Of a stretch of DNA of 64,000 nt, positions 41,882 through 49,045 are shown in pieces. The position numbers were made by a program, and so were the translations under genes. A model generated the notes under the pieces. The model did not search any database. It had not been told where the DNA came from and saw only the letters and a program-made list of their open reading frames with translations. The stretch covers positions 1,736,001-1,800,000 of the forward strand of contig NC_007516.1 in the NCBI RefSeq assembly GCF_000012625.1, read 5' to 3'. Within the stretch, counting starts at the first letter, position 1; every line of letters begins with the position of its first letter. The stretch is from Synechococcus sp. CC9605 (GTDB lineage Bacteria; Cyanobacteriota; Cyanobacteriia; PCC-6307; Cyanobiaceae).

Positions 41882-42900
41882 TGGGACGCGCCCGAGACCT
41901 CTCCCGCTACAGCGCCACCCGCCTCGCCCTGGCGCCATTGATGTTGTGGCTGATCGCCAGCCTGGTGTTCCTGTTGCTGCGCGTCGCCCCAGGGGATCCC
42001 GTGGATGCGGTGCTCGGCAGCCGGGCTCCCGCTGCCGCCAAAGCCGCCATGCGGGCTCGGCTGGGCCTGGATCAATCGTTGCTGGATCAGTACCTCAGCT
42101 ATCTCAACGGATTGATCCATGGCGACCTAGGGCAAGCCCTGATCAACCAGGAGCCGGTTCGAACCATCATCGGCAAAACCCTGCCCGCCAGCCTGGAACT
42201 GAGCGTCATCGCCCTGGCTGTCGCTGCTGTGGTGGGGCTGAGCATTGGATTCAGCGGAATCGCCCGGCCCGAGGGAAAGATTGACCTGGGAGGTCGCCTC
42301 TATGGATTGGGCACCTATGCCCTGCCGCCCTTCTGGGTGGCCATGCTGGTGCAGCTGGTGTTCGCCGTCAGCCTGAGCTGGTTGCCGGTGGGTGGACGCT
42401 TCCCCCCCAGCATTCTCCCCCCCGAGGGCAGCGGATTTTTCCTGCTGGACAGCGCTCTGCAGAACAACTGGGCCGCCTTCCGAGGCACTGTGCGTCACCT
42501 GATCCTGCCCGCAGGAACCCTGGCCCTGCTGCTCAGCGGCACCTTCACAACCGCTCTGCGCCTGAACCTGCGACGCACCCTGCGCGGCGACCACGTGGAA
42601 GCGGCCCGCAGCCGCGGCCTGAGTGAGCGTCAGGTGATCCTTCGCCACGGACTGCCCAATGCCTTGCTGCCGGTGCTCACCATCGCTGGCATCACCGTGG
42701 CCTCGTTGATTGGTGGGGCCTTACTGATTGAAGTGACCTTTTCCTGGCCAGGCATTGCCCTGCGCCTTCAGGAAGCCATCAACCAGAGGGACTACCCCGT
42801 CGTTCAGGGGATCGTGGTGGTGATCGCAGCCTTGGTGGTGCTTGTGAGTGTTGCCGTTGACCTGCTGGTGGCCGCCCTCGATCCTCGGGTGCGTTACTGA
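41881..42900 (+). CDS. ABC transporter permease (DppB/OppB family)
   Basis: A 339-residue membrane component of a peptide-type importer with about six helices. It begins ALAPLMLWLIASLVFLLLRV (first helix), has RVAPGDPVDAVLG after it, and carries the EAA-type cytoplasmic loop in GDHVEAARSRGLSERQVILRHGLPNALLPVL. The C-terminal end (PRVRY) is typical. Its partner DppC and ATPases are missing here. The 3' end overlaps the convergent hydrolase gene by 7 bases. Confidence 0.92.
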   Translation: MGRARDLSRYSATRLALAPLMLWLIASLVFLLLRVAPGDPVDAVLGSRAPAAAKAAMRARLGLDQSLLDQYLSYLNGLIHGDLGQALINQEPVRTIIGKTLPASLELSVIALAVAAVVGLSIGFSGIARPEGKIDLGGRLYGLGTYALPPFWVAMLVQLVFAVSLSWLPVGGRFPPSILPPEGSGFFLLDSALQNNWAAFRGTVRHLILPAGTLALLLSGTFTTALRLNLRRTLRGDHVEAARSRGLSERQVILRHGLPNALLPVLTIAGITVASLIGGALLIEVTFSWPGIALRLQEAINQRDYPVVQGIVVVIAALVVLVSVAVDLLVAALDPRVRY

Positions 42901-44543
42901 TCCAGCAGCTGCAGGGCCGAGGGTCGGTCCAAGCGATGCCAGCGCGTTTTGGAGCTGGCTTCCATCAGGTGAACGGCATCGTTGCGGGGTGAACCTGAGC
43001 TCAGGGAATCGAGGAAACGGATGACTTCATGGGCAATCACCCGTTGAACGCTGAGGGGATTGACGCCCACCAACTCTTCGCCGAGCCGGAAGAGGTCATC
43101 CCCCTCGGATGCCTTGCCCTGGCCGTCCACACGAATTGGCGAAAAGTGACTGGCCCCCTCCACCACCACCACCCGGCTAGCGGGATGCTCAGCCAATCCA
43201 GCCGAAAGAGGCAGCTGCTCATCCAAGGGAGGAGTGATCAGATCAAGCGTCCCACCCACCATCAACAGCGGAATCGGCAACGCCTGGCTGGAGCGGTGCG
43301 GCCAGATCAACCCGCCAAAGCTGTTGAGCCCCACCACCGCCCGGGGCAGCGAAGCCATCGCGTTGCCCTCGAGCACGCGGCCTGCCGCAAGCTCGCACTG
43401 CAGCAATTCCGAGAGGTTGGTGAGGGGCAGGCCCGCCAGATCCGCTTCACAGCGCTGCTCCATCCCGGGCACTGGCTGCGCCCCACTGGCCAGGAGAGCC
43501 GTCAAGGCACCCAGGGAATGCCCCATCAGCACCACGTCGGTCCCGGGGATGTTCAAATCGCCCCGTTGTTGCGCGTCCACCACCGCCACAAGATCAGCCA
43601 ATCGATCACGCAGTGCTGCGGCGCCGTCAAACGACTGACGCCCCTCAAGCAACGCCTGGACAGCGGCAGCATCGCTGCCGGGATGCTCAAGCACCACCAC
43701 GGGCCAGCCCGCTTGCATCAGCGAACGCGCCAGCCAGTTGAAATGGTCGGGGTCCCCGCCCAGCCCAGGCATCATCAAGACCCAGAGTCCGTCCTTGGAT
43801 GACGACTGGGGGATCCAGCGTTCCACCCGCAGGCGACGCGAACGATGGTCCACTGCAAGCGTTGACTGACGGGGCGCATCGGCCAAGGCAGAACCCTCGG
43901 TTCCCTTGAGGAGCTGCAGGCGGGCCTCTTTCTGAGCCAAGGTCCGCATCAAGGTCTGATGTCGCTTCAATTCCAGCCGCCAGCGGTTGGCGGCAGCCAC
44001 CAGCGCATCCAGATCAAGACGCAGCTGCTGGGTGGGCAACGCTTCCAACACATCCAGCGTCGAAACGGTTGTCTGCCGTTCGAGCAACTGCTCCAGCGTG
44101 GAGAGCACCAGCGAACGATTGATGCGCTTGCCGTCCTCCACCCGAATCAATTCCCCCAACGCATCCAAAAGCGGACCCGCTCCCCAGCTGCTCAGCAACT
44201 GCCGCCCAAGGCTGCGACGGGAGAGCACAGGAGCCTTGAGCAGACGGATCAGCCCCTGTCGGCTTTCCGGCGCGAGAAGGCCCATCCAGGTTGAGAGCTC
44301 CGATCGCGAGAGCTGTGCTGGATCAGCCGTCGGCGAGCGCACGAAGGCGCCGAGTTCCTCCACCGAAACCGGAAGAACCAGGCCATCGATCTCGACCTCC
44401 ACACGTTCTGTGGAGCCAACAGGCCACGATCCGCCCGTGCTGAGCAGCAGACTGCCCATCAAGCCCATCGCGATGCATCGTCCTGTTAAGCGTCCGCGCA
44501 GCAACGCCTGACCCTCTGCGGTGGTGGAACCAGTTTCCATCAC
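42894..44543 (-). CDS. DUF1400 alpha/beta hydrolase
   Basis: A 549-residue protein with a signal-type hydrophobic segment (about 25-37), an N-terminal DUF1400 domain (about 45-150, VEVEIDGLVLPVSVEELGAF) and a C-terminal alpha/beta hydrolase with the nucleophile in MGHSLGAL and the His region ASHFSP near the end. Members are secreted, of unknown substrate. Start: ATG 44543 gives 549 residues; a TTG 39 bases downstream would shorten it and reduce the overlap with the divergent MFS gene's apparent N-terminus. DUF1400 is mostly cyanobacterial. Confidence 0.87.
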   Translation of the reverse strand: MMETGSTTAEGQALLRGRLTGRCIAMGLMGSLLLSTGGSWPVGSTERVEVEIDGLVLPVSVEELGAFVRSPTADPAQLSRSELSTWMGLLAPESRQGLIRLLKAPVLSRRSLGRQLLSSWGAGPLLDALGELIRVEDGKRINRSLVLSTLEQLLERQTTVSTLDVLEALPTQQLRLDLDALVAAANRWRLELKRHQTLMRTLAQKEARLQLLKGTEGSALADAPRQSTLAVDHRSRRLRVERWIPQSSSKDGLWVLMMPGLGGDPDHFNWLARSLMQAGWPVVVLEHPGSDAAAVQALLEGRQSFDGAAALRDRLADLVAVVDAQQRGDLNIPGTDVVLMGHSLGALTALLASGAQPVPGMEQRCEADLAGLPLTNLSELLQCELAAGRVLEGNAMASLPRAVVGLNSFGGLIWPHRSSQALPIPLLMVGGTLDLITPPLDEQLPLSAGLAEHPASRVVVVEGASHFSPIRVDGQGKASEGDDLFRLGEELVGVNPLSVQRVIAHEVIRFLDSLSSGSPRNDAVHLMEASSKTRWHRLDRPSALQLLDQ

Positions 44544-44596: not shown

Positions 44597-45808
44597 GTGA
44601 TCTTCATGACGCCGCTGATCTTTCATGCGATTGACTTCTCGGCGCGTGAAGTGGGCAGCGGCTTAGCCGTCTCCGCCCTGATCGGCACGGTGGTGCGTCT
44701 GCTGAGCGGTGCACTGCTCGATCGGGGCGTCCGCTGCTCCTGGCCTGTCAGGGGCACAACCCTGTTGGCCATTGCGGCCGATTTGATCCTGCTGCAGGCC
44801 GACAACTACAACAGCTACCTGTTCGGACAACTGCTGCTGGGCTGTGCGGCAGGTCTGTACTGGCCTGCCATCGAATTGGCCGTTCCCTTGAGTTGCGGCG
44901 ACCTTCCTTCAGGCCGGGGCTATGCCCTGGTGCGCAGTGCCGATGCTCTCGGTATTGGCATTGGCACGCTGATCGGAACCGCAGCCGCCACGCTGGGAAT
45001 GCTGCGAACGGTGTACAGCGTTGAAGCGCTCTGCATGGCCGCCGTTCTGGTGCTGATCAGCCTTGTTCCACTCCAGGACGGCCCTCCATACCGCAACCTC
45101 AGCAGAAATATCCCCGATCCGGATGGTCCACGGTCAACGGCCCGGCTGCCTTGGTTGCTGCCCCTGCTGCCGGTGCTGCTGATAAGTGTGGTGGCTACCG
45201 GGATACTGGCCCTCCAACAGAGTGCGCTTCCCTTGGATCTGGTGCGCGGCGGGCTGTTGCGACCGGCACTGAGCGAAAGCCACAGCAGCGCATTGATCTC
45301 CCTTCAGCTGACCTTGCTGGTGAGCCTGCAGTGGCCGGTGGGCCGTTGGCTGGCGGAGCGCAGCGTTGCCTTCGGGCTTGGCCTGAGCCTGGCGGGATTC
45401 AGTCTGGGCTGCGCTTTGATTGCCCTGTCATCCCTGTTCGAGAACGGAACGATCCTGGTGCTGGCAGCTTTGCTGCCGATGGCCTTCGCCCAGGCCGCTT
45501 TCTTACCCACGGCCACAGAAGCCGTCATTGAAGAAACACCACCGGAACACCGTGGTTTGGCGATGGCGCTGTTTTCCCAGTGCTTCGCCATCAGCGCCAT
45601 CGTGGCGCCCCTCGCCGGAGGAGCCCTGCTGGACCTTCAGAACAATGGCCTGCTGCTCTGGCTGTTGATGGGTGGGGGGTGCCTGGTTGTGCTCCCGACC
45701 CTACGCAGCCTCAAGCCGCGTTACGGCATCGATGGCACGATTGCTCAAACAAGCCGTTCAACGCACAATTCACAAACCAACAACACATTGGCAGCCAATT
45801 CCAGATAA
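44597..45808 (+). CDS. Major facilitator superfamily transporter
   Basis: A roughly 12-helix membrane transporter. The conventional start GTG 44597 gives 403 residues, but the family's first helix begins earlier: in the same frame, 44519-44596 encodes RWWNQFPSPLRNVTRLRFLASIGAG, a plausible N-terminal membrane region, and there is no ATG, GTG or TTG from 44444 to 44596. Within the protein, loops such as ALLDRGVRCSWPVRG and the repeat EHRGLAMALFSQ fit MFS. Substrate unknown; cyanobacterial drug or osmolyte exporter-like. The C-terminal tail (last 25 residues) is encoded by AT-rich DNA. Confidence 0.82.
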   Translation: MIFMTPLIFHAIDFSAREVGSGLAVSALIGTVVRLLSGALLDRGVRCSWPVRGTTLLAIAADLILLQADNYNSYLFGQLLLGCAAGLYWPAIELAVPLSCGDLPSGRGYALVRSADALGIGIGTLIGTAAATLGMLRTVYSVEALCMAAVLVLISLVPLQDGPPYRNLSRNIPDPDGPRSTARLPWLLPLLPVLLISVVATGILALQQSALPLDLVRGGLLRPALSESHSSALISLQLTLLVSLQWPVGRWLAERSVAFGLGLSLAGFSLGCALIALSSLFENGTILVLAALLPMAFAQAAFLPTATEAVIEETPPEHRGLAMALFSQCFAISAIVAPLAGGALLDLQNNGLLLWLLMGGGCLVVLPTLRSLKPRYGIDGTIAQTSRSTHNSQTNNTLAANSR

Positions 45809-46132
45809 GCCTTGAATCAAAGTCGCAAGCCAACAGCAAAAAAAGACTTCGAGAATTAAAAGACTACAGCAGCAACACAACATTAAAGGCCGGCTAAATA
45901 CTTTTGACCATTTTCACGAACCGAAACAGCGACAACCTCTACCACCGCCATGCATCAGCCCAAAAACAAAGAAAACATCAGAATGGTCTCACCGAGCAAA
46001 CAAAATGGACAGAAATACATGAATTCGACAAATCAATCCAGACTCGGCCTCCAACTCCCGATTGTCCCTTTGAAAGCACCCTTAACTTGCCCAAAGAGCA
46101 TTGACTCAAGTAGGGTCTAAATCTGATTGGCC
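45809..46132. other. AT-rich stretch without a recognisable gene
   Basis: This 324-base region contains visibly more A and T than the surrounding DNA (many runs of A and AAC). A 66-codon frame starting at 45904 exists but has no recognisable feature. No tRNA, terminator or inverted repeat is clear. It forms the left part of a low-GC islet that continues into the next gene. Confidence 0.8.
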
Positions 46133-46723
46133 ATGGATCAGATGAAAGTAATGATCGGAAAAGATCTCGTGATTGTTGCCGGCCCTTCAGCATCCGGAAA
46201 GTCACACTTGATTCGACAGCTAACGACCAAAAGAAAGAATAAATTCAGAGACAAGGTTTACTGTCAGCTCGGCATCAATCCCCAGGAGCCAAGGTCGCAC
46301 ATCAGCATTGGAGCTTTAACCAAACTTGATAGCAAGCCTGGGCATTCACGCAAATTAATCAAGGAACTGATTTTCATCCATTTCGACATAACCAGCCGCC
46401 ACCAGAGCGACAAACAACATTTGCTCAAATCAATCGCACATAGCTGCAGAAGCATCAAAGTCGTCACCCTAAAAACACCCTTTGACGTCTGGCATCAACG
46501 CATGCGACAACGCATTGACGTTAACCCAACAAAAAACCCATCGAACATTGCGGATGACATCTACAGACTATCGCGATTTTCCCGCTATTTCGCGAGGTGG
46601 CGCTACGAATCAGTCTATAAGAAATGGGAGAAACTGATTCAAAATATTGACCTTGATGCTCAGCTCATCGTGAAAAATGAAGAGATGCCTTTCAAGCCCA
46701 GAAAAAAGAAATCTATCGATTAA
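46133..46723 (+). CDS. P-loop NTPase-like protein, AT-rich gene
   Basis: From ATG 46133 the product has 196 residues and begins with a P-loop, GPSASGKSHLIRQL (Walker A, about 16-29), typical of small kinases or polysaccharide/sulfotransfer-type proteins. The rest is rich in Lys, Arg and Ile (RRYESVYKKWEKLIQN-type), with a Lys-rich C-terminus ending KPRKKKSID. Codon use, with many AAA, ATT and AAC codons, differs strongly from the neighbours. A second in-frame ATG at 46145 is also plausible. Function is unknown; the base composition suggests transfer from another source. Confidence 0.7.
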   Translation: MDQMKVMIGKDLVIVAGPSASGKSHLIRQLTTKRKNKFRDKVYCQLGINPQEPRSHISIGALTKLDSKPGHSRKLIKELIFIHFDITSRHQSDKQHLLKSIAHSCRSIKVVTLKTPFDVWHQRMRQRIDVNPTKNPSNIADDIYRLSRFSRYFARWRYESVYKKWEKLIQNIDLDAQLIVKNEEMPFKPRKKKSID

Positions 46724-46735
46724 ATCAAGATCACA

Positions 46736-47827
<1,092 letters not shown>

Positions 47828-47878
47828 CGGCGGAATCTACCGGCCAGCGGCGAGACTGTCGTGAAGTTTTGTGGGCCC

Positions 47879-49045
47879 ATGCTGCAGTCCTTGCGCTCCC
47901 CTGCGTCCCCATCGCCTGAAGCAGAGCTGGCCTCAGTGGCGAAGGCACAATCCAAACGACCCAAAGCCGCGATGGTCGGATTGCTGGTGTTGGTCCTGTG
48001 CGGTGGTGGGCTACTGCTGCGTTTCGGACCCTGGAGCAACCGCCAACGGGATCTGACACCCTTCACCACCACTGCAGAACGTGGCGTTCTCTCTGGGGTG
48101 ATCACCGCCAGCGGCGAACTGCAGGCCCAGCAGAAGGTGAACGTGAGTCCGCGCAAGCAAGGTCTGCTGGCTGAGCTGAAGGTGGATGAAGGAGATGTGG
48201 TGGAGAACGGACAGGTTCTGGCCTTGATGAATCGTGGCGATCTCGATGATCGGCTGCAGGAGAAGCGGGCTCTGCTGCGCCAGGCCGAAGCCAATTATCA
48301 GAACAAGCGGGAGGATTTCGAACGACGCAGCCAGCTGTATGCCAGCGGCGCGCTCAGCGCTGACGACTTCAGTGATGCGCGCTTCGAGATGCTGGCTGGG
48401 CAAGCGGGCCTCGTTGCAGCCCGGGAACGGGTGGAGCAACTGGAACAGGAGAGTCGAGAAAAGACGATCCGCGCCCCCTTCTCAGGAACGATCACAGCGC
48501 GCTACGCCGAACCGGGGTCGTTTGTGACCCCCACCACTGCCGCCTCGGCCACGGCCGGTGCCACAAGCTCTTCGATCGTTGAACTCTCGCAAGCCCTGGA
48601 GGTGAGGGCCCGCGTTCCGGAAAGCGACATCGGCCGCATCGCGACCGGCCAGAAGGCCGAAATCCGGGTAGATGCCTATCCCGATGAGCGCTTCCAGGCA
48701 AGGGTGAATGAAATTGCCCCCCGCGCAGCCAAAGAGAACAGCGTCACCTCCTTCGAAGTGAAGCTGAACTTCGTCAACCCGCAAAACAAATTGAAGATCG
48801 GCATGACTGCCGACATCAATTTCCTAACCGGGCGTAGTGACCCCAAAATCCTTGTGCCCACGGTGGCGATCACCCTGGAGGACGGCCAACAGGGTGTGTT
48901 GCTGGTGGATGAGAACCAGCAACCACGTTTCCAGCCGGTGGAACTGGGCAACAGCAGCGGCGACCAGACTGCGATCCTGAACGGTCTCGAATCAGGAACT
49001 CGCGTGTTCATCGATCTGCCCCCCTGGGCAGACCCGCGCGATTGA
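47879..49045 (+). CDS. HlyD/MFP-type efflux adaptor (RND periplasmic adaptor family)
   Basis: From ATG 47879 the 388-residue product has a basic N-terminus, one membrane anchor (about 34-50), then an adaptor: lipoyl-like strand QGLLAELKVDEGDVVENGQ, a coiled-coil hairpin (about 125-200, with EKRALLRQAEANYQNKREDF), and a beta-barrel with FEVKLNFVNPQNKLKIGMTADINF. It joins an inner-membrane transporter to an outer channel, but no such partners are nearby. A GTG at 47861 would add six residues. The ABC or RND partner is not determinable. Confidence 0.88.
   Translation: MLQSLRSPASPSPEAELASVAKAQSKRPKAAMVGLLVLVLCGGGLLLRFGPWSNRQRDLTPFTTTAERGVLSGVITASGELQAQQKVNVSPRKQGLLAELKVDEGDVVENGQVLALMNRGDLDDRLQEKRALLRQAEANYQNKREDFERRSQLYASGALSADDFSDARFEMLAGQAGLVAARERVEQLEQESREKTIRAPFSGTITARYAEPGSFVTPTTAASATAGATSSSIVELSQALEVRARVPESDIGRIATGQKAEIRVDAYPDERFQARVNEIAPRAAKENSVTSFEVKLNFVNPQNKLKIGMTADINFLTGRSDPKILVPTVAITLEDGQQGVLLVDENQQPRFQPVELGNSSGDQTAILNGLESGTRVFIDLPPWADPRD

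Follow-up and report, generated by a model that had tools for sequence, protein, structure and literature searches.

Replacement flexible genomic islands are described in passages of PMC4033161 as being exchanged by homologous recombination and as showing a peak of synonymous changes in their border genes. For hotspots of gene turnover that carry no mobile elements, double recombination at the flanking core genes has been proposed (passages of PMC5635113), and the genomic islands of marine Synechococcus are presented in part of PMC2441476 as accessory genes of deviating composition lying between homologous borders. The locus described here is the interval between an MFS transporter gene and ychF in Synechococcus sp. 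CC9605, situated in a stretch of 64,000 nucleotides (NC_007516.1, positions 1,736,001 to 1,800,000), hereafter the window. It is well explained as a one-gene miniature of the known replacement islands, and we consider it, with a probability of roughly 0.7, to be a small gene-exchange site of the marine Synechococcus genus that holds a swapped AT-rich cassette in this strain.

The site shares with the islands of PMC4033161, as far as they are described in the passages concerned, a constant chromosomal place with conserved borders (26 of 26 genomes) and strain-specific contents, and an exchange via the borders, which here would follow from a contrast in dS, a conflicting grouping and sharp edges. 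A surface-modification theme is likely for the usual cargo, which has a predicted glycan-sulfotransferase-like fold. The site differs from those islands in holding one gene and about 1 kb as opposed to whole clusters, 52 kb long in one example, in that part of the coding sequence of a border gene appears to move with the cassette, and in showing at most a slight synonymous peak in the border genes, divergent and not near-identical alleles being compared in our case. The replacement-island mechanism would thereby be seen at one-gene scale with both exchange edges visible. The likeness to the turnover hotspots described in part of PMC5635113 lies in variable cargo between conserved genes, in a window islet devoid of an integrase and in double recombination at the flanking core genes as the proposed means; those hotspots are defined statistically, the MFS-ychF site by comparison of its cargo between genomes. 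The islets in the available part of PMC2441476 come from the same organism group and have deviating composition and homologous borders as well, but they are clusters of 2-17 genes. The MFS-ychF site is not named in the passages of PMC2441476, PMC5490813, PMC3478194 and PMC7522525 that were at hand.

Table 1 Features of the MFS-ychF site and its flanks (coordinates are those of the window; G000, window genome; G003, its sister genome)
Feature	Coordinates	Strand	Basis or remark
Alpha/beta-hydrolase-like protein, 549 aa (left flank)	42894..44543	-	Label by eye; adjoins MFS in 26/26 genomes
MFS transporter gene, 403 aa (conserved left border)	44597..45808	+	Pfam MFS_1 E 1.3e-22; same place in 26 genomes
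Variable polar MFS C-terminal tail, codons 377-403 and stop	45725..45808	+	Similarity to G003 lost within tail
Putative exchanged segment, approximate edges vs G003	45745..46735	.	Alignment; divergence contrast
Gene-free stretch, GC 0.44	45809..46132	.	Matching G003 stretch contains a relic of a second, upstream P-loop gene; no significant protein relic in G000
Conserved block upstream of P-loop start	46084..46128	+	Alignment of G000, G003 and G014
P-loop kinase-fold protein gene, 196 aa	46133..46723	+	Start ATG 46,133 or 46,142
ychF GTPase gene (conserved right border)	46736..47827	-	Pfam YchF-GTPase_C and MMR_HSR1
HlyD/RND-adaptor-like protein (right flank)	47861..49045	+	Label by eye; conserved ychF neighbour

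The GC content is 0.44 over positions 45,809-46,735 compared with 0.63 for the whole window, dropping from about 0.63 to 0.42-0.47 within 45.7-46.9 kb and returning to about 0.60 inside ychF. When the 64 kb were scanned in segments of 900 bp (mean GC 0.628, sd 0.033), the minimum of 0.434 was located in the islet, and 45,584-46,994 proved to be the sole run with GC below 0.48, which bears out the AT-rich islet between MFS and ychF proposed in the original prediction. The GC3 value is 0.74 in the body of the MFS gene and 0.48 in its last 27 codons, and 0.53 in the P-loop gene versus 0.71 in ychF. The islet is made up of these last MFS codons, 324 bp without a convincing gene, and a single P-loop gene of 196 codons ending 12 bp short of the stop codon of ychF, which is encoded on the opposite strand.

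The ychF gene was searched for in 34 genomes of the genus including that of the window (G000), and the region was then retrieved from 28 others. It is present in 31 of the 34, being truncated in two, while two more genomes gave weak matches to another GTPase and one gave no match. The comparable set consists of the 26 genomes, G000 included, with MFS and ychF on one stretch, leaving out G013, G017 and G002 (MFS absent from the piece compared) and G016, G019, G023, G025 and G030 (no, weak or cut ychF match, or contig end). All 26 have the same four flanking genes on both sides, with the HlyD-like one cut by the end of the piece in G014. The interval itself varies from 169 to 8,718 bp, and its GC content is below that of the MFS gene in every genome, the difference being 0.05 or more in 24. 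Variable contents and conserved borders thus characterise the MFS-ychF gap, and several of the longer intervals contain additional ORFs besides the cargo named below.

The most frequent cargo is a sulfotransferase-fold protein found in 13 of the 26 genomes. The P-loop gene occupies the site in G000, in its sister genome G003 and in G014, where two copies stand in tandem, and a distant member of the family is found in G028 beside a broken copy of the 380-aa sulfotransferase-like gene, giving 4/26 for the family. The gene is thus absent from this place in most strains, as expected from the idea of a foreign islet, and the sister interval, which the original prediction had suggested might be empty, does contain a P-loop gene. 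Two genomes (G001, G020) harbor a TPR protein of 857 or 860 aa, one (G033) has a single small ORF of 111 aa, a similar ORF being present downstream of the TPR gene in G001 and G020, and one (G011) has an integrase with small ORFs. The interval is essentially empty in G031, G032, G007, G027 and G008 (5/26), and in the 169-bp gap of G031 the 380-aa gene has left a remnant that matches at 75% over 40 residues and contains three stops. The TPR intervals of G001 and G020 (L057, L064) share 90% DNA identity over 3.5 kb, the two strains not being sisters on the flank tree. The G011 cassette (L073, 3188-4315) is the largest at the site, with 8.7 kb, a tyrosine recombinase and many small ORFs.

The flank tree was built from the hydrolase-like, MFS (body only), ychF and HlyD-like proteins. 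The cargo classes require 11 changes on it, the minimum possible being 6, and shuffled cargo labels require 12.3 on average, with 11 or fewer in 24 of 200 shuffles, so the tree shows cargo turnover without separating gain, loss and exchange. A single origin for all the P-loop genes at the MFS-ychF site is possible and was not rejected (AU p of 0.093).

The same tree recovers G003 as the sister of G000 (100/100), with G014 placed further out. Between the two sisters, dS is 0.07 for the hydrolase-like gene, 0.12 for the MFS body, 0.18 for ychF and 0.08 for the HlyD-like gene, and 0.20 for a second copy of the P-loop gene located elsewhere (C1:779,656). For the islet P-loop gene it reaches 1.74 (dN 0.336), a rough value given that pS is 0.68 and near saturation, and for the MFS tail 0.74, calculated from 20 synonymous sites only. 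The islet gene of G003 is closer to that of G014, with dS of 0.93 as compared with 0.40-0.67 in the flanks of this pair. Due to the excess of islet dS over the flanks and the affinity of the G003 gene to that of the more distant strain, the islet allele appears to have been swapped, and at least one of the G000 and G003 alleles would have come from another lineage after the two strains split. No donor of the exchanged allele was found. The claim that the islet is foreign or exchanged is therefore supported by the dS contrast as well as by the limited occurrence of the gene.

These values also bear on the possibility that the islet gene is ancestral, has been inherited vertically, evolves very fast and drifts to AT. 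The fact that G000, G003 and G014 have this gene in one and the same position, and the reduced GC of the interval in all 26 genomes, fit such a history, but dS is expected to track the mutation rate and should not differ so much between the islet, the flanks and the paralogue, nor should the G003 allele resemble more closely the one in G014, a more distant strain. Vertical inheritance consequently seems very improbable to us.

The swap of a segment is also consistent with the distribution of nucleotide divergence between G000 and G003. Calculated per 300 bp, it stays at 1-6% for about 15 kb on the left side and at 1-5% for 2.4 kb on the right side, compared with 18-37% inside wherever the sequences are alignable (45,806-46,079 is unalignable). 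Similarity breaks sharply near 45,744, at about codon 383 of the MFS gene and inside its tail, as well as at the ychF stop; the left break lies within about 10 bp of the islet start at 45,735 given in the original prediction. There is at most a slight rise of synonymous changes in the border genes (dS of 0.18 in ychF versus 0.07-0.12), with a nucleotide divergence of about 0.05 in ychF versus about 0.03 further out.

The means of exchange is inferred to be homologous recombination, the edges of which would lie close to codon 383 of MFS and to the stop of ychF; recombination in the border genes is favoured as the simplest means and matches the models published in PMC4033161 and PMC5635113, as far as the passages of these papers go. 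According to this scheme, donor DNA carrying the same two border genes would recombine in them, and everything between the borders would be swapped as a cassette, here including the last MFS codons, with neither an integrase nor a tRNA target required. Half of the compared strains hold the protein with the predicted glycan-sulfotransferase fold, the window lineage has the AT-rich P-loop kinase-fold cassette instead, and the allele of either the window genome or its sister would have been replaced after their split.

Integrase-borne elements could produce variable cargo as well, and the cassette might be such an element or its remains, for instance a tycheposon or a phage-derived satellite, inserted behind the MFS gene. 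Tycheposons are characterised by a tyrosine recombinase and a tRNA target. The islet of the window differs from them in having no integrase ORF of its own and no tRNA between positions 40 and 52 kb of the window. The G011 cassette does have a recombinase, which scores 33.2 bits against Pfam Phage_integrase (cut-off 27.1) and is accompanied by the many small ORFs; in that strain the site may thus have served a mobile element as well. No integrase was recognised by eye among the ORFs of at least 70 aa in the other 25 intervals, five proteins of the site having been run against Pfam, and of the two edges relative to G003 one falls within the coding part of MFS and the other at the stop of ychF. 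We regard a mobile element as a highly unlikely source of the window cassette; site-specific integration may nevertheless have contributed in some strains, given the recombinase of G011.

In all 26 MFS proteins a conserved PR[YFL] motif is followed by a variable extension of 8 to 36 residues (lengths computed for 20 of the 26 and counted by eye for six). It was suggested originally that the polar MFS tail resulted from the joining of foreign DNA to the 3' end of the gene. Since every compared strain has a tail, the junction did not create it, and what stands of the suggestion is that the tail type appears to be exchanged together with the islet. Tails were compared in 11 strains, nine of which fall into three groups with an identity of at least 0.70 within and at most 0.62 between groups: G000, G003 and G014 with the P-loop gene, G029, G010 and G031 with the sulfotransferase or its remnant, and G001, G020 and G033 with the TPR protein or the small ORF. 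The flank tree instead joins G029 to G001 and G033, whereas it joins G020 to G010 and G031. As judged from these sequences, the tail type in the nine grouped strains follows the cassette against the flank tree. The two strains left out of the grouping are G022, which has a sulfotransferase as cargo but a tail unlike that of the sulfotransferase group (0.34-0.51), and G026, the tail of which fits this group loosely (0.64-0.74); the sulfotransferase strains outside the 11 compared have other tail types. The carrying along of the end of the neighbouring transporter would explain part of the differences between strains in the MFS tail.

In G003 the gene-free stretch contains the degraded 3' portion of a P-loop gene that lay upstream and resembled the first tandem copy of G014 (relic score of 129, the maximum of 200 shuffles being 47). 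The same search in the gene-free stretch of the window genome revealed no significant protein relic (score of 34, equalled or exceeded in 53 of 200 shuffles), and the two short ORFs located there had no Pfam match. At the DNA level, the window genome resembles G014 over the end of the MFS gene and roughly the first 80 bases downstream (63 versus a shuffle maximum of 47), and G003 over the MFS end and some 30 bases downstream (56 versus 41). A block of about 45 bp just 5' of the P-loop start is common to G000, G003 and G014 and represents a candidate promoter or leader. The promoter search returned one sigma-70-like site at 46,213-46,240, outside the conserved block, with 1.3 expected by chance, and no terminator-like sites were found, with 1.9 expected; the single Rfam match (E 0.91) was attributed to chance.

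The P-loop gene foreseen in the islet is indeed present and codes for a protein with the Walker A motif GPSASGKS; the later of its two possible start codons is the one suggested by alignment with the start of G003. The structural model (pLDDT 90) has an adenylate/polynucleotide-kinase fold, its best listed match being adenylate kinase 6pk5_C (Z 10.1, rmsd 3.2, 143 aligned), with polynucleotide kinase 3zvn_A scoring Z 8.8 (rmsd 4.0, 137 aligned) and with Foldseek query TM-scores of at most 0.48 among the best 50 matches listed. A profile search of solved structures gave, among the matches listed, matches over the P-loop region. In an alignment of 21 family members A16, G17, G22, K23, W120, R127 and W165 are invariant and S19, D85 and Y158 nearly so. 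In the model, D85 ends a central strand and R127 lies in the helix after the following strand, and these positions may correspond to those where nucleoside-monophosphate kinases bind Mg-ATP and phosphate. The protein is similar to AAA_33-type P-loop kinases and to nucleoside monophosphate and polynucleotide kinases in fold, Walker A motif and the placement of D85 and R127, but it passes no family cut-off and has W120, Y158 and W165 conserved in its own family.

Nine proteins of the family were run against Pfam. The window protein scored 23.4 bits with AAA_33 (PF13671), below the gathering cut-off of 27, and two of the nine exceeded a cut-off, namely the G003 counterpart (AAA_33, 28.7 bits) and the paralogue L019 encoded by the second copy in the window genome (Viral_helicase1). 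The latter match, 21.2 bits versus a cut-off of 21 over 52 residues at Walker A, was taken as chance. Only weak matches were obtained with PHROGs, NCBIfam and PADLOC for the P-loop proteins tried, and the kinase-fold family has no name in the libraries searched. The dN/dS ratio of the gene is low, 0.13 for G003-G014 and about 0.19 for G000-G003, the latter being rough as dS is near saturation. It is possible, at somewhat less than even odds, that the protein acts as an ATP-dependent kinase on a small molecule or on a cell-surface glycan precursor.

A role in defence or as a toxin component, e.g. a zeta-like one, in place of an envelope or metabolic kinase would suit the variable location of the gene, the Zeta_toxin (PF06414) score of L019, which at 20.0 bits is near the threshold of 22.3, and the zeta-domain viral proteins among the fold matches. 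The window protein itself scored 13.2 with Zeta_toxin, though, the best PADLOC matches were short or partial (E 0.0073 for the window protein and 0.00089 for L019), there is no partner gene within the islet, and the second family copy diverges little between G000 and G003, as noted above. We consider such a function unlikely, and the envelope or defence role anticipated for islets of this kind was not borne out for the P-loop gene itself.

The usual tenant of the site, about 380 aa long, possesses the motif HAGTHKTASTYIQ(E/D)RL. The G010 representative had no match in Pfam and NCBIfam at E ≤0.01, and its model has a pLDDT of 82.6. The first three Foldseek matches, with modest scores, pointed to a zeta-type kinase fold, which was rejected as the second-look structural alignment ranked sulfotransferases first, all of the best 50 matches listed being sulfotransferases or PAP-binding relatives. 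The best match is heparan-sulfate 3-O-sulfotransferase 1t8t_A (Z 14.0, rmsd 3.5, 224 aligned), followed closely by the bacterial sulfotransferase 3rnl (Z 13.9, rmsd 3.6, 220 aligned), and cytosolic sulfotransferases score near Z 9.5. The protein is likely to be a glycan sulfotransferase, and this predicted fold of the usual cargo favours an envelope theme for the site. A relative 44% identical to the 380-aa protein is encoded elsewhere in the window genome (C1:346,739).

One could go further and regard the site as a switch of cell-surface chemotype, at which strains would alternate between sulfotransferase and kinase, both acting on glycans and the latter restricted to the genus; recombination would swap the two and so change phage receptors or grazer recognition, a reading that strikes us as rather improbable. 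If the site does tune surface chemistry, it would offer a handle on the variation of picocyanobacteria in phage susceptibility. The site also draws attention to two families of an abundant marine phototroph, a kinase-fold one that is nameless in the libraries searched and the sulfotransferase-like one that is its most frequent occupant.

The P-loop family was found in 17 of the 59 genomes searched, all 17 belonging to the marine Synechococcus genus of the window. When the family profile was run on 300 genomes of the taxonomic family, drawn from a larger group and with ten candidates scored in each genome listed, it matched 21 genomes, 13 of the same genus and 8 of other genera; the match in G031 corresponds to a broken fragment of a family member only. 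The 8 genomes of other genera matched over 26-59 positions at the P-loop and were not counted as having the family. When genome contigs were searched with the P-loop protein, 31 stretches fitted the pattern and none coded for a relative. Among the genomes searched, the family appears to be restricted to one genus. On viral contigs 212 stretches fitted the pattern, and the one match obtained, 37 residues around Walker A, was not accepted as a viral relative. Among the viral proteins matched by fold, the one in third place is an uncharacterised protein of cyanophage S-TIM5 (BFVD H6WFX4, query TM 0.51, 12% identity to the P-loop protein).

In 12 other stretches the P-loop genes have a GC content of 0.36-0.50, mostly amid GC-richer neighbours. 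The second family member of the window genome (C1:779,593-780,162; L019, L085) has glgX on one side and on the other a gene labelled by eye as glyQ-like; a TPR-2OG-oxygenase protein is encoded nearby, and the counterpart of this family member in G020 is interrupted by a stop. A sulfotransferase-like gene or its remnant occurs within 2 kb of the P-loop gene in 4 of 16 stretches, two of which represent the same locus, and a functional tie between the P-loop family and sulfotransferases is weak. At a third P-loop locus, bordered by two genes that were labelled by eye as coding for an iron-sulfur protein and as icd-like, the P-loop gene lies beside a 390-aa sulfotransferase-like gene in G024 (L090, about 9.8-12.0 kb) and in G018 (L096, about 14.0-16.2 kb), and in G021 a different gene of 613 aa replaces the sulfotransferase-like one.
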